From positions 1 to 37,867 of IMG/VR virus record IMGVR_UViG_3300043398_000054: 37,867 nt of DNA. One strand, given 5' to 3'. Made by a program: the position numbers and the translations under genes. Origin of the DNA: a virus. How positions within the stretch are numbered: position 1 is the stretch's first letter; every line of letters starts with the position of its first letter. Below are positions 16,137 to 23,963 of the stretch, one piece after another. The notes beneath the pieces are model-generated. The model saw only the letters and a list, made by a program, of their open reading frames with translations. It did no database searches and was not told where the DNA came from.

Positions 16137-18655
16137 CATTGGCCCACCGCATTGCTGAGATCGGGGGCCCGCGATGGCATGGCGTCTGCCGGATCCCACC
16201 AGTAACCCTGTGACCAGTCCTTCTGAGCGCGCTGTTTCATGCGGGCCAGATAGCCGGGGTTCAACGCTTCTTGTGCAGAGAACAGGAACCAGTGTTCATA
16301 GGCACCGCGCAGCCACCAGAGATTGGCATATGGCAGTTGGGAGTTCGTCCACCGCGCTGCCTCGGCACCGAAATGGGTGTCCTTCCCCTTTGCAGCCTCC
16401 CAGGCATTGGTCACCACCAGATCACCCGCAAGCCCAGCCACAGCGCCAGCGGCCGGGCCCAGCACTGTGCCAATCCCTTGCTCCGCTGAGCTGGTGCGCT
16501 GCTCGGTCGGATCTTTGAAAAGCAGATCGCCAAGATAGCCAGCACCACCACCCTGCGCTACGGCGCGCATCCAGAACTTGGACTGTGTGAGGTCGTAGGG
16601 GTCTTTGCCCTGCACCAGCGCCTTGTTCTGCAGCACCACGGCGCCCAGCATCATGAGCGTGAGGTTCAGCCCAGCGATGGCGGCCACCTTGTTCAGTGCG
16701 CCGCCGGCCTCGCTTTTGGCACCGTAGCCGCTCGGAGCGCCTTCCAGGCCTTGGGGCGTCTCCATCACCCGGCGCCAGTGGCGCGTCAGCATCGCAATGG
16801 GGAAGCTCTTGAACTGAGTGAAGCTGCGCATGGCTTCACCGCTGATGGTCCCGGTGGGCATGCCGCCGCCGGTCACGATGGCACGGGTGGCCAGGTCAGG
16901 ATTGACCACGGCAAATTGCCCCTCGTCCACCGTGAATGCTAGTATTTTTGTAGCTACTTGCGCAGCATCCGCGTGGCCGGTGGCTTTGATAGCTTCCGGC
17001 GTCAGATACTCGCCGCCCTGGTGCGCGGTGGGCTTGGCCTGGTTCACCACCGCCCAGTCCGCCTCGGTGATGCCCTTGCGCTGCAGCAGGTACCGGTCCC
17101 ACTCGGTGAGCTTGCCCCACTCGGTTTTCCCCATCTTGGCCATGCCGCCCATCATGGTCATGGAGAAGGCATTGCGCAGGCCGTCCGTCCAGGCGTTCAT
17201 CAGGGAAAGTTTCATCACGCTGCCCGCCACCCGCCCGGTAAGGCTGTGCGTCATGTGGTCGCCGGTCCAGCGGTTCAGCGTGGAAGACAAGGTTTCACCG
17301 ATGACACCGTGGGCGGTGAGGAAGTCGCGCGTGTCGCCGTCAAACTGCTTGCCGATGTTGCGCAGCATGTCGAAGTAAGGCAGCTTGTTGTAGTGCAGCG
17401 TGGAGGCGATGGTGGCCATGTCCGTGGTGCTGGAGAGCACCGCGCCGCCCAGCTTGGCCGCGGTCTGGATGTTGCGCAGGTCTTGCCCGATCTGGGCCAC
17501 CACGCGGTTCTGCGCGCTGGTCTTGCCGCTGATCAGGTTCCAATAGGCCTCCGGCTGGTTGCCGGCGCTGCGGCTTGCCATGGTGCCCACACCGTCCTCG
17601 CGCTGGGCGATGTCCTGCTGCAGCTTGAATTGCTGCTCGGGGTTGGGTCCGTAGCGCTCCACCAGGCCCGTGTCCCGCGCCATGTGCCCCACGTGCCCCA
17701 CCATGGCGTCATACAGCGATCCCTGCCCAAACTCGCCCATGTAGGCCATCCAGGCATCGCCGTCCTTGAAGTGCAGCACCCGGGCATCGCTGCCAGCGTT
17801 GGCCTTGGCGCCCGTGCCCTTGAACTGGCCCGGCTGGGTTTTGTTCAGCCCACCGGTGGCAATGGTGTCGTGGGCCCCCTCCAACATGGCCAGCACGTCC
17901 GCATCCTTCATCAGGCTGCCGTCTGTGTTCACGTACTGCTCACGGTCCAGCAGCGGCAACACCTTGGCCGCCCAGTCCTTGGGGCCGGCCTCCAGCACTC
18001 GCACGGCATCGTGGGCCTGGGACAGGTAGCCATATCCCAGTTTCCCAACATCGCCGCCGGCCGCGTTGAAGCGTAGGCGCATGGATTCTATGGTTTGGAG
18101 CCAGGCCTTGGCCGCTGCCACCGCCGCCTTGTTGCCGGTGTGGCCGTCCGCCAGTTTGAACACTTCGCGCACCACGTCCCGCGTGGTCACCGGGTTGTCC
18201 AGATCAAAGATGCGCATGCCCAGATTGCGCAGCAGGCCGGTGCCATCCTTGTTGCTGGCGGCGTCCATCAGGTCAGTGAGTCCAGAGATCGCATCGTTGC
18301 GCACCGCGTCGATGTACTGCCCAGTTTGCTCGATGTCGCGAATCAGGCCCTGCGAGCGGGTGAGGTCGCCCAGCGCGGCGGCGTCCTTCACGCGGGCGTC
18401 GGTCTCCGCTGTGCGCAGCACCTGCAAGGTGGCGCGGTATTCCTTGAGCGCCGCCTGGGCCTGCACGTCCTCCATGGCCGCAATGGCCGCCTCGGTCACA
18501 CGCTGGTCACGGGACAGCCCCTGCCAGCGCTGTCGGTCCTGACGGGCCAGTTCGCGCATCTTGGCGCTGATGGCGTCATCAATGGCCTGGATCTTGGCAG
18601 CGCTGAGTGGCTTGCCAGCCGCGGCAATCACGGCTTTAATGCAGTTCGAATTCAT
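16136..18655 (-). CDS. Large internal/ejection virion protein
   Basis: An 839-aa protein in the T7 gp16 position (last structural gene before the terminases). The ATG at 18655 is preferred over the TTG at 18661. The N-terminal half is helical and charged (DRQRWQGLSRDQRVTEAAI). The central part has MGEFGQGSLYDAMVGHVGHM and VERYGPNPEQQFKL. Later come amphipathic membrane-active stretches (LNLTLMMLGAVVL; AGAVAGLAGDLVV). Such proteins are stored in the capsid and ejected to form the DNA conduit through the cell envelope. I see no obvious lytic transglycosylase motif, unlike T7 gp16. A comamonad-type repeat fragment lies within it (16935-16975). Confidence 0.82.
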   Translation of the reverse strand: MNSNCIKAVIAAAGKPLSAAKIQAIDDAISAKMRELARQDRQRWQGLSRDQRVTEAAIAAMEDVQAQAALKEYRATLQVLRTAETDARVKDAAALGDLTRSQGLIRDIEQTGQYIDAVRNDAISGLTDLMDAASNKDGTGLLRNLGMRIFDLDNPVTTRDVVREVFKLADGHTGNKAAVAAAKAWLQTIESMRLRFNAAGGDVGKLGYGYLSQAHDAVRVLEAGPKDWAAKVLPLLDREQYVNTDGSLMKDADVLAMLEGAHDTIATGGLNKTQPGQFKGTGAKANAGSDARVLHFKDGDAWMAYMGEFGQGSLYDAMVGHVGHMARDTGLVERYGPNPEQQFKLQQDIAQREDGVGTMASRSAGNQPEAYWNLISGKTSAQNRVVAQIGQDLRNIQTAAKLGGAVLSSTTDMATIASTLHYNKLPYFDMLRNIGKQFDGDTRDFLTAHGVIGETLSSTLNRWTGDHMTHSLTGRVAGSVMKLSLMNAWTDGLRNAFSMTMMGGMAKMGKTEWGKLTEWDRYLLQRKGITEADWAVVNQAKPTAHQGGEYLTPEAIKATGHADAAQVATKILAFTVDEGQFAVVNPDLATRAIVTGGGMPTGTISGEAMRSFTQFKSFPIAMLTRHWRRVMETPQGLEGAPSGYGAKSEAGGALNKVAAIAGLNLTLMMLGAVVLQNKALVQGKDPYDLTQSKFWMRAVAQGGGAGYLGDLLFKDPTEQRTSSAEQGIGTVLGPAAGAVAGLAGDLVVTNAWEAAKGKDTHFGAEAARWTNSQLPYANLWWLRGAYEHWFLFSAQEALNPGYLARMKQRAQKDWSQGYWWDPADAMPSRAPDLSNAVGQ
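16935..16975. repeat. Degenerate ATAGCTGC-type palindromic repeat, copy in virion gene
   Basis: AATGCTAGTATTTTTGTAGC followed by TACTTGCGCAGCATCCGCG resembles copies at 32765-32820 and 36929-36978. It is locally AT-rich within GC-rich coding sequence and encodes ATKILAFTV. It is the weakest of the three copies. Confidence 0.4.
18612..18640 (+). promoter_or_regulatory. Plus-strand sigma70 promoter for antisense membrane gene
   Basis: TTGCCA (18612-18617, 5/6 to consensus), exactly 17 bp, then TTTAAT (18635-18640, 5/6). The start would be near 18647, about 7 nt before the ATG at 18654. It is embedded in the first codons of the opposite-strand ejection-protein gene. Confidence 0.65.
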
Positions 18656-18839
18656 GGACAAGTTCTTTCTTTTCTGGTTCTACATCGCGTGCATGCTGGG
18701 GATGGTCTTCTTGATCACCTGCGGCCTGTTCGGGGGCGTGCGCCCGGCGTGGCGGTACATGCGCACGCTGGTGAAGCACATCGCCTTTCTGGCAGCTGCT
18801 GGCACGGTGGTGGCCTTTGCCATCACATCGTTCCTGTAG
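18654..18839 (+). CDS. Antisense two-helix membrane protein (moron candidate)
   Basis: A 61-aa protein on the strand opposite to the surrounding late genes. It fills the 167-bp gap between two minus-strand genes and ends 17 bp inside the downstream one. It has two clear membrane helices (about residues 4-25 and 41-60) with a basic Arg-rich loop between them (RPAWRYMRTLVK). Its ATG and the ATG of the minus-strand virion gene share one CATG palindrome (18653-18656). A consensus-like promoter lies just upstream, and the short leader leaves no Shine-Dalgarno. It is independently transcribed and probably active in lysogens, so lysogenic conversion or superinfection exclusion is a reasonable guess. 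No family recognised. Confidence 0.65.
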   Translation: MDKFFLFWFYIACMLGMVFLITCGLFGGVRPAWRYMRTLVKHIAFLAAAGTVVAFAITSFL

Positions 18840-20931
18840 ACAGCGCGCAATTCGCCGCCACTTCCAGTAGCCCGGCATCCTGGGCGCCCAGCTCGGTGTC
18901 GGTGCCCTCCATGGACTCCCGGCGAATACGCTCCAGCTCCTGTTTCACCGTGATGGGTTTGCCATCGGCGTCCTGGCCCACCACCATGTCCGGGTTGGTG
19001 CGCTCGATTTCCTCGGCACGGGACAGCACGGACTTGACGCCGGGGGCCAATTTGCGGGTTTCCCCTGCCCCCGGTACAATGGAAGCATCGGAGGCCCCCA
19101 TGAAACTGCCAGCATTTGGACCCAAAGCCGAACTACTCGATGTAGAAGGCGTCCCTGTATCGCTGTACCCCGATTGCCCAGGCGTCAAGTTTTCGATGGC
19201 CTGGGACACTGATCCCCCCCGCGTTTTTCCGTCAGACTCAGCAGCGCGCAATGGCACGTTGGTCAACCGTGAATATTTCGATGCGTTGGTGTCGTTTACA
19301 CGCGGCGAAATGGATTCAGCAACATTTGCCGCCTTGCCGGTGGTGTCCGATCCAGTTGCAAAATCCCGGTTTGCATCAGCCCAAGCCGCTTCGTAAATAG
19401 CTTGCTGGCGGCCCTGCAGGTCGCTGACCTTTGCTGCCACATCTGCTGGCATTTCTTTCCCATCCCACTCGCGCCGCAAGGTTTCCACCTGTTTGTACAG
19501 CGGGTGAGCCTCCTTCTTCGCGGCCAGCATGCCGGGCACATTCACCTGAATCTCTGCCACGTGCCCATCGATCAGCACATTGAACTTGGCATCACGGTAG
19601 CCACCAATGGACTGTTCATTCAGGCCCAGAAGGTTGCGTCCGCTGCCAGGCACCACGTCATACCGCGCCATCACTTCCGCCACGGCCTTCTGCGCCGCTT
19701 CGGCTGAGTCCACCACCAGAGTGGCGCGCACCAAGTCTTTGATCTTGGTCGGGTCGCCGGCATAGTCGCCCACCACCTTGTCCACGGCGCGGTCCACGCC
19801 TTTGAGCTCGGCCAGCTTGACCGTGCCACCCACCGTGTCGGCGATGGCGCGCGCAGTGCTGTCGAATACCGGCTTCACCTGCTCGGCTTTGTTGTACATG
19901 TCCACCATGCCCTGGCGGCGATCCTCGGGCAGGCGCTGCACGTGTTCATTGGCAACGTCGGGCAACGGTCGCTTGGGCTGCACCAGCTTCACCGCTTCGG
20001 CTGGCGGTGTGGCCTCGCGCACGTCCTGCGCCAAGGTGAGGTTGTGGGTCATCACAGCGTCAGCCCGCTCTGGCGTCAGGCCTGCAACTTCCGGTTTTGC
20101 CACCGGCTTTGCGCCGCCCTTGCCTGCGCGCGCGCCGTACATGGCATGTGCTGCGAAGCCAGCGGGCACCAGCGAGGCCACCGCCAGGCCCGTGATATCG
20201 AGGGGGTCATACGACTGCGCCAGGTCGGCATAGTTCGCGTTCTCCAAAACCTTGCGGGTGGCGGCCTGCTGGGCGACAAAAGCGCCCGGTCCACCCACCG
20301 CCCACAGTCCCACAGTTTTGGCCACGGAGCCAGGCGCCGCTACTGGCAGCAGCACACCGGCTGCCGCCGCACCGCCAGCCACGGCCCCTACCTTTGTACG
20401 TGTGTTCTTGTCTACGCCCTGCTGCGCCAGATCGTCAGCAGTCTGCATGCCCTCGTCCACCGCCAACATGGCTGCACCGGGCGCCGCTCCGCCAGTGGCG
20501 GTGTACCCCACAGCCTTAGTGACAAAGCGGGTCAGGTCGAAAGTGAGCGTTTCAGCCAAGCTCGCCGTAGCCGGATCAGGTCGGTAGTTGCGCGCCACAT
20601 TACGGAAGGATGTGCCCACGCCCGAAGTGGTATCAATTCCCTCCGCTGCGATCTTTGCCCGCTGTAGCTCTGCCTCTCGTTTCTCGGCATCGCTGCGCAC
20701 CGAGAACATGCCGCCAGCGCTGGAGGTTCCATACGCGGATTCAACCTGTGCGGCGCCCTTCACGCTGTCGGCCCAGCTGCCCGCCACCTCTGCGGTTCCT
20801 GCAGCCACTGCGCGCAAGGGGGCACTCCAGCCGTTCCATTTAGCCGCAGGCTTTGGCTTCACGGGCGGCATGCTGGCCAGGTTGTCGAGTGCCTGGTCTG
20901 TGTCCTGTTGGTAGAGATCACCCAGCATCAT
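18823..20931 (-). CDS. Virion protein with RelA/SpoT-like domain
   Basis: A 702-aa protein between two large internal virion proteins. The N-terminal part contains Ala/Gly-rich hydrophobic stretches (about 130-260) of possible membrane-inserting type. Residues 365-500 resemble the nucleotidyltransferase fold of RelA/SpoT synthetases: Asp399 in KIKDLVRATLVV, Gly444-Tyr-Arg (GGYRDAKFNVLI), Glu460 in AEIQVNVP, and His476 in HPLYKQ. Residues 512-611 are Ser/Thr/Gly-rich and lie opposite a plus-strand gene (19100-19396). The C-terminal 90 residues are helical (VLSRAEEIERTNPDMVVG). If ejected with DNA like its neighbours, it could carry an enzymatic domain into the cell. Activity is inference; a purely structural use of the fold is possible. 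Confidence 0.75.
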   Translation of the reverse strand: MMLGDLYQQDTDQALDNLASMPPVKPKPAAKWNGWSAPLRAVAAGTAEVAGSWADSVKGAAQVESAYGTSSAGGMFSVRSDAEKREAELQRAKIAAEGIDTTSGVGTSFRNVARNYRPDPATASLAETLTFDLTRFVTKAVGYTATGGAAPGAAMLAVDEGMQTADDLAQQGVDKNTRTKVGAVAGGAAAAGVLLPVAAPGSVAKTVGLWAVGGPGAFVAQQAATRKVLENANYADLAQSYDPLDITGLAVASLVPAGFAAHAMYGARAGKGGAKPVAKPEVAGLTPERADAVMTHNLTLAQDVREATPPAEAVKLVQPKRPLPDVANEHVQRLPEDRRQGMVDMYNKAEQVKPVFDSTARAIADTVGGTVKLAELKGVDRAVDKVVGDYAGDPTKIKDLVRATLVVDSAEAAQKAVAEVMARYDVVPGSGRNLLGLNEQSIGGYRDAKFNVLIDGHVAEIQVNVPGMLAAKKEAHPLYKQVETLRREWDGKEMPADVAAKVSDLQGRQQAIYEAAWADANRDFATGSDTTGKAANVAESISPRVNDTNASKYSRLTNVPLRAAESDGKTRGGSVSQAIENLTPGQSGYSDTGTPSTSSSSALGPNAGSFMGASDASIVPGAGETRKLAPGVKSVLSRAEEIERTNPDMVVGQDADGKPITVKQELERIRRESMEGTDTELGAQDAGLLEVAANCALSTGTM
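19052..19080 (+). promoter_or_regulatory. Plus-strand promoter for embedded gene
   Basis: TTGCGG (19052-19057), 17-bp spacer, TACAAT (19075-19080, 5/6). The predicted start is near 19087, giving a 13-nt leader that contains the GGAGG ribosome binding site at 19090-19094. Confidence 0.6.
19100..19396 (+). CDS. 98-aa protein embedded antisense in a virion gene
   Basis: Plus-strand gene fully inside the minus-strand 702-aa virion gene. The ATG at 19100 has GGAGG 5 bp upstream and a promoter at 19052-19080, better signals than many phage genes. The product begins MKLPAFGPKAELLDVEGVPV, has mixed strand/helix character (PGVKFSMAWDTDPPRVF; NREYFDALVSFTRGEMDSAT) and no membrane segment. The opposite-strand translation here is low-complexity, as expected when one frame is under selection and the other is overprinted. 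The stretch looks less GC-rich than its flanks. Function unknown; a lysogeny-expressed moron is the best guess. Confidence 0.6.
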   Translation: MKLPAFGPKAELLDVEGVPVSLYPDCPGVKFSMAWDTDPPRVFPSDSAARNGTLVNREYFDALVSFTRGEMDSATFAALPVVSDPVAKSRFASAQAAS

Positions 20932-23519: not shown

Positions 23520-23963
23520 TCAAAACTCCTTTGAGTGAAGGGTCGCCACCTGCGTGAAGCCGAGGTGACCGAGAAGGCGGCCGGTCTCTTCGACCTTGAA
23601 ACCGGTATTGATGCCCATCTCCACGGCGTGGGCTCCCTGGGTCTGCGCCCATTCGGCGTATCGCTTGAGAAGACGCACAGCGAGCATGCCGCCGCGGTGA
23701 TCTGGGTGGATGAACAGTCCGAAGTCCTGGGCCGTTTTGGCAGTGGAGAACCAGAGTTCCATCACGATGGCCGCCATGGCGCCAACGATCTGCCCATCCT
23801 TTTCCGCCACCATCACAAAGCTCTTGCTTTCGAGCAGTTGGGCGAAGATGCGCGCCACCTTGTCGGAGGCGTAGGGCAAGGCCTTGAACCGGCTTTCAAG
23901 GTGCATGACGTGGCCCAGCTCCACGATGGTGGGGATGTCCGATGGGGTGGCGTGGCGGATCAT
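23520..23963 (-). CDS. GNAT-family acetyltransferase in structural block
   Basis: A 147-aa GNAT N-acetyltransferase. N-terminal MIRHATPSDIPTIVELGHVM, then FVMVAEKDGQIVGAM (strand 4), and the acetyl-CoA-binding loop in HPDHRGGMLAVRLLKRYAEW (about residues 89-108). The C-terminus is GRLLGHLGFTQVATLHSKEF. It lies between tail tube B and the internal core protein genes, a place where podophages often carry such a protein. The substrate is unknown; it may modify a virion or host protein. Confidence 0.85.
   Translation of the reverse strand: MIRHATPSDIPTIVELGHVMHLESRFKALPYASDKVARIFAQLLESKSFVMVAEKDGQIVGAMAAIVMELWFSTAKTAQDFGLFIHPDHRGGMLAVRLLKRYAEWAQTQGAHAVEMGINTGFKVEETGRLLGHLGFTQVATLHSKEF

Follow-up and report, generated by a model that had tools for sequence, protein, structure and literature searches.

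A putative immunity gene nested antisense in a virion gene with a Tas1-like toxin domain in a temperate phage

The small plus-strand gene and its start signals

The window analyzed here is a 37,867-nucleotide stretch of viral DNA, positions 1 to 37,867 of the IMG/VR record IMGVR_UViG_3300043398_000054. Its minus strand carries a virion gene of 702 amino acids at 18823-20931, and antisense to this gene a small plus-strand gene runs from an ATG at 19100 through 98 codons to a TAA ending at 19396. The small gene is preceded by a sigma-70-like promoter at 19052-19080 (plus strand), composed of TTGCGG (19052-19057), a 17-bp spacer and TACAAT (19075-19080), and by the Shine-Dalgarno sequence GGAGG at 19090-19094 (plus strand), 5 bp before the start codon. 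An initial annotation of this DNA had listed these elements, and all of them were read at these positions. The virion gene encodes a Tas1-like (p)ppApp synthetase (toxSAS) domain, and we propose that the small gene encodes the probable immunity protein for this toxin domain.

The length of the small gene is unremarkable by itself, because the GC-rich window contains 165 open reading frames (ORFs) of at least 80 amino acids and the frame of the small gene is open for 433 amino acids when counted from an upstream TTG. It is the comparison with relatives that raises the gene above chance. A homologue of 83% identity over 64 amino acids is found in another phage (L002) at the identical antisense position, and both TACAAT and CATCGGAGG are kept upstream of it, thus the -10 element and the Shine-Dalgarno sequence are common to the two phages. 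Relative to L002, the window has about 27 extra codons toward the end of each frame, at about residues 65-92 of the small protein, indicating that one insertion lengthened both proteins at once; the extra codons are located at 19310-19380 on the plus strand, or virion residues 527-560. Among 22 dereplicated relatives, a -10 element TAnnnT is present upstream of the small gene in 19, where 14% would be expected going by matched positions of these loci. A Shine-Dalgarno sequence is present in 18, where the expectation is 2.3%, and 200,000 simulations reached neither count. The -10 element lies exactly at -25 from the start in about half of the relatives having it, and several relatives possess TTGACA, TTGCCA or TTGTCA 17 bp upstream of it. 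A generic promoter scan of the window gave no match above threshold, because TTGCGG shares just 3 of its 6 bases with the -35 consensus. The weak terminator-like site seen at 19435-19451 does not exceed what shuffled sequences give. The initial annotation had described, nested antisense in an ejection-type virion gene, a plus-strand protein gene that is complete and has promoter-like and ribosome-binding signals of its own; the family of 24 aligned members and the signals in relatives bear this out, and by this comparison the gene at 19100-19396 is real.

The small protein is predicted to adopt a folded beta-beta-beta-alpha-alpha structure, with a predicted local distance difference test score (pLDDT) of about 90 in the core. 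Its family is present in about 30 or more contigs and has the consensus FFDVEGIPVxLG...CAAWDxxPPRxFxxDSARRNGAPVSxxxFxxLV. A search against phage proteins, as the initial annotation had suggested, recovered the homologue in L002 and the wider family, with no match in PHROGs or in GenBank phages. The protein matched nothing in Pfam either, tblastn against the phages and plasmids in GenBank gave no match, nothing credible was found among the PDB sequences, and no DNA nearly identical to the segment was found in GenBank phages. The 24-member family yielded single chance-level matches only against Pfam, PHROGs and NCBIfam. Judged from these searches, the small protein matches no known family and constitutes a new one.

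The toxin domain and its linkage to the small gene

The toxin domain covers virion residues 321-526 (19354-19971, minus strand). A single-sequence phmmer search with these residues matched Tas1 (6ox6_A) with an E value of 1e-12, and a four-sequence profile of the domain matched Tas1 (PDB 6OX6) with an E value of 8e-19. Superposition of the predicted domain model (pLDDT 95) by VIA-align revealed Tas1 6ox6_A as the best match, with a Z-score of 16.3 and a root-mean-square deviation of 2.1 Å over 166 residues at 31% identity. Small alarmone synthetases and Rel enzymes ranked next, indicating a Rel-synthetase fold. The residues K57, R61, K65, D79, R82, Y125, E140, Q142, K152 and H156 of the domain alignment (A9) are invariant in 31 sequences, and we take them to have catalytic roles as in RelA/SpoT enzymes. 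Invariant residues of this type are as expected of an active Rel-type synthetase, suggesting that the domain may be active. By sequence and predicted structure, the virion domain is homologous to the toxin domain of Tas1. Alternative carriers of the domain were also found: it is fused to a portal-like protein in L047, and occurs in proteins with stretches similar to the phrog_342 internal virion protein.

A query with the toxin domain collected 51 viral and 4 bacterial-genome loci; those in the genomes behind L012 and L013 are prophage-like. Applying the small-protein profile to them revealed the small gene opposite the toxin domain, over its 3' end, in nearly all loci of this clade. In the reverse search, starting from the small protein, the toxin domain was found on the opposite strand in 29 of 29 loci, contigs new to the collection included. 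Among 385 and 369 sampled bacterial genomes, the small protein was found in only one genome, which bears the toxin as well; a first scan of bacterial genomes with the small protein had given nothing, and a separate scan with the toxin domain had given four loci. The pair varies in the extent of its overlap. In the bog phages L005-L010, the small protein is a version of 41% identity whose gene overlaps the 3' end of the toxin gene by only 49 nucleotides, in the AT-rich L009 (34% GC) the small gene is present mostly outside the virion ORF, and the family member in L050 has no overlap with the toxin. The antisense toxin/small-gene pair recurs in many unrelated phages, so the arrangement is not the rare one that the initial annotation had expected.

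Other members of the toxin superfamily have small partner genes on the same strand. In the Pseudomonas locus L015, Tis1 follows the toxin (E = 7.5e-31 against 6ox6_B), in L052 a member of the small family itself follows the toxin on the toxin's own strand, and in most phages similar to Bordetella phage PHB04 the toxin is followed by a same-strand gene of another small-protein family. Most loci that lack the antisense gene have a small gene after the toxin on the toxin's own strand instead. The same-strand partners therefore support an immunity function for the small protein.

In PHB04 (L011, 4073-4857) and in L054-L064, the Tas1-like domain protein lies next to the portal, and a conserved gene of 64-80 amino acids (MVYIENEGALFRGP...) follows it on the same strand. 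The next gene in PHB04 carries the annotation (p)ppGpp synthetase/hydrolase. The PHB04-like genes make up a candidate second toxin/immunity/hydrolase set.

Overlap of the two frames and the carrier gene

In 24 of 24 sampled loci, the small gene lies on the opposite strand in the same phase, with its codon position 1 facing toxin position 2 and wobble facing wobble. Nesting is full in 20 loci, partial in 3 and absent in 1. The virion frame is open through the whole small gene in 20 of the 24, and the toxin ORF ends inside the small gene in L009, L019 and L047. To assess this openness, the small-protein amino acids were fixed and synonymous codons were drawn at random; the toxin frame is open opposite the small gene in 17 of 20 dereplicated overlapping loci against 4.5 expected, a count never reached in 1e6 simulations, where the loci were counted as independent after near-duplicate removal, with deeper relatedness as a caveat. 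In the same 20 loci, the stop codon of the small gene faces a near-invariant Tyr codon of the toxin.

Comparison of the virion proteins of the window and L002 yields an identity of 82% opposite the small gene and lower values of 60% over the toxin domain and of 43% and 31% over the N- and C-terminal parts, respectively. Substitutions over six pairs amount to 82, 56 and 206 at positions 1, 2 and 3 of the small-gene codons (position 1 versus 2, p = 0.03). These values suggest that constraint acts mainly on the small frame, with the other frame required to remain open, in line with the earlier suggestion that the plus frame is the selected one. A tree test for a single origin of nesting requires 5 changes of the nested label, with many weak forks, and places the same-strand PHB04 group in one clade.

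The carrier protein matches phrog_1145 and consists of a phrog_1145-like N-terminal half, the toxin domain, the stretch antisense to the small gene and a conserved C-terminal tail. The N-terminal part, residues 1-309 (20004-20931, minus strand), is common to the cassette-free homologues L068-L071. The C-terminal part past the small gene, residues 612-702 (18826-19098, minus strand), is likewise common to cassette-free homologues, as exemplified by the similarity of their tail ADAGLIEVAANCFLSNG to DAGLLEVAANCALSTG in the window. A comparison of homologous virion proteins for a matching insertion, which had been put forward as a check, gave a clear result: L069, L070 and L071 keep the N-terminal half and the tail, and both the toxin domain and the small gene are absent from them. 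Because of this, the toxin domain and the small gene must have entered the structural gene together as a two-strand cassette, and the occurrence of the domain on various carriers, along with the cassette-free homologues, therefore indicates insertion of the pair into structural genes. L030 aligns to phrog_1145 over residues 70-692, so its tail belongs to the phrog_1145 family. To reach its tail, the virion frame must, from this layout, cross the putative immunity gene. The initial annotation had regarded the small gene as a moron that was inserted into or arose within a structural gene. Insertion holds, with the amendment that the gene came with the Tas1-like domain as a two-gene cassette; a lone moron arisen de novo in the structural gene is rejected, as other phages have the small gene clear of the overlap and the cassette-free homologues lack it along with the toxin domain.

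The neighbours of the carrier gene are genes for a portal-like adaptor and for head, tail and internal virion proteins, and a CI-like repressor and an integrase mark the phage as temperate. By gene order, the toxin domain sits in a head/ejection-type structural protein of a temperate phage. No MuF domain was detected in the carrier by Pfam, and no Pfam family matches the 702-residue protein at E <= 1.

Some further features of these loci were observed. In the cassette-free L071 (4001-5956) and L068, other middle stretches occupy the same slot, a lysozyme-like one by eye in L068 and another domain in L071; the slot between the N-terminus and the tail therefore looks like a general cargo site. 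The toxin domain and the antisense small gene lie inside giant ORFs of at least 2,100 codons in L017, L024 and L031, where the putative immunity gene is thus nested deep in a very large virion-type protein. At 18654-18839 of the window (plus strand), a gene for a predicted membrane protein of 61 amino acids fills the gap between two minus-strand virion genes. Small membrane ORFs occur at the same antisense place in L002 (3610-3789), L069, L070 and L071, also without the toxin cassette, and therefore this looks like a second conserved antisense gene of these phages. In addition, a GNAT acetyltransferase gene (23520-23963, minus strand) lies between tail and internal virion protein genes.

Proposed function and comparison with known systems

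Based on these data, we consider it highly probable that the two strands of the segment together encode a polymorphic toxin/immunity cassette carried by the phage, in which a Tas1/Apk-type virion toxin is paired with an antisense, lysogen-expressed immunity protein. The minus-strand virion domain would pyrophosphorylate ATP/ADP to (p)ppApp. The toxin would be packaged in the particle and ejected with the DNA, and would poison or slow a cell without protection. The plus-strand protein of 98 amino acids would be the cognate immunity protein that binds and neutralizes the toxin. A constitutive-looking sigma-70 promoter of its own, lying within the virion gene, would drive its gene, so that a lysogen with silent late genes could still make the protein and be shielded from particles arriving from outside or from stray expression of the toxin. 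Late transcription in the lytic cycle, running antisense through the small gene, could switch it off. The pair was inserted in the middle of an ejection protein, and the virion protein would cross the immunity gene as a Ser/Thr/Gly-rich linker, with its Ser/Thr stretch at residues 561-611, to the conserved C-terminal tail, reading through because the immunity gene is antisense and the opposite frame is free of stops. With less confidence, we favor a broader view of the cassette as a widespread module, in which the immunity protein is read from one strand of a segment and a virion linker, in frame and free of stops, from the other, and the segment can be dropped into the middle of diverse structural genes without cutting the protein, immunity being on in lysogeny and silenced by convergent late transcription.

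Several points weigh against the cassette interpretation. The -35 element of the small gene in the window is weak. The predicted fold of the small protein has no clear match in the PDB (Foldseek) or BFVD. The small family aligns to Tis1 by hhalign with an E value of 0.14 in one motif only, and to the PHB04-type partner with an E value of 0.055, neither of which is significant; both weak alignments fall on the same SARRNGxxVSxxxF stretch. Packaging and ejection of the carrier are deduced from its relatives and from gene order. Furthermore, wobble faces wobble in this phase, so selection acting on just one of the frames, whichever it is, would also yield an excess of third-position substitutions.

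The lack of significant similarity to Tis1 also agrees with a small protein that is a partner of the toxin domain other than an immunity protein, such as a packaging chaperone keeping the domain unfolded or inactive, or an activator, and strict linkage to the domain is expected of any dedicated partner. However, a sigma-70-like promoter of its own, opposite the late genes, fits a need at a time when these genes are silent and not a packaging factor, and small immunity genes accompany toxins of this family elsewhere, making such a partner unlikely. The same promoter, being antisense to the toxin gene, might drive mainly an antisense RNA that represses the virion gene in lysogens, with the peptide secondary. 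We give this very little weight, since the family is conserved at the amino-acid level with a start codon and a Shine-Dalgarno sequence, also in the non-overlapping L050 and the same-strand L052, and its changes are concentrated at wobble positions. The small gene might also be genuine while the virion extension across it is not translated as such, as the toxin ORFs ending inside the small gene in L009, L019 and L047 would allow. But the other 20 overlapping loci have an open frame far more often than chance allows, and the reading runs into tails conserved with cassette-free homologues (phrog_1145 spans L030 residues 70-692) or, in L017, L024 and L031, on into long coding sequence downstream, which leaves this alternative slightly less probable still. 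That the plus ORF is a mere by-product of GC-rich antisense sequence, as the many long antisense ORFs in the window and the lack of a match in GenBank phages or plasmids might suggest, is already refuted by the comparative data, namely a family in about 30 or more contigs with signals and phase and a small gene that in the AT-rich L009 is mostly clear of the virion ORF.

Toxins and immunity genes of related kinds are known. A 2017 study predicted MuF toxins with RelA-like domains on temperate phages and took small ORFs downstream of them as the immunity genes (PMC5576092); the characterization of Apk2 with IapK and Aph1 followed (PMC12226406; PMC11699363). The words antisense, overlap or opposite do not occur in the latter two papers. 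Similar to these systems, which have a C-terminal adenosine 3'-pyrophosphokinase domain, the window has a domain of this type in a head-associated protein of a temperate phage together with a putative immunity gene. In MuF/Apk2 systems, however, the immunity gene is downstream of the toxin gene, whereas the cassette in the window is internal to a carrier without a MuF domain. Tis1-like antitoxins inhibit toxSAS that produce (pp)pApp; they block the acceptor site (PMC11782079). The type VI secretion pair Tas1/Tis1 (Apk1) of Pseudomonas aeruginosa (PDB 6OX6) resembles the window in its (p)ppApp synthetase fold and residues and in its small dedicated partner gene. Tas1 is a type VI secretion effector, whereas the domain in the window is located in a phage structural protein, and its partner is antisense, nested and not detectably homologous to Tis1.

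In the ionophoric (pore-forming) colicins, the immunity gene is described as 'downstream' and has a promoter of its own on the strand opposite the toxin operon (PMC9517006). The window is similar in this orientation (24 of 24 sampled loci) and in its promoter-like signals, although the colicin proteins are unrelated to those of the window. The colicin immunity gene lies downstream of the toxin gene and not inside the toxin reading frame, and we know of no opposite-strand colicin immunity gene inside the toxin's reading frame. Antisense overlapping genes with experimental support in Escherichia coli, laoB and pop (antisense to ompA), are reported as isolated cases (PMC5810103; PMC7103648). They share full antisense nesting with the window, whereas the pair in the window appears functionally linked and is conserved across many phages. 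A literature search, with most subscription papers and all preprints outside its reach, brought up no virion toxin gene reported to have an immunity gene nested antisense within it. The phage-delivered polymorphic toxin is of a known kind, and the antisense nested putative immunity gene is new.

Protein genes nested antisense within others are a matter of dispute in prokaryotes and phages, since the majority are isolated, young cases that lack a known partner. The nested gene of the window is conserved over many divergent phages with conserved start signals, and it has a natural functional partner in the overlapped gene, which therefore opens both frames to simple toxin-neutralization assays. 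The findings would widen the range of (p)ppApp toxins delivered by phages, adding ejection-type proteins and portal-fused carriers to the MuF proteins, and provide a new candidate immunity family missed by gene finders. They also suggest the opposite strand as a place to seek the immunity genes of other virion-borne toxins.
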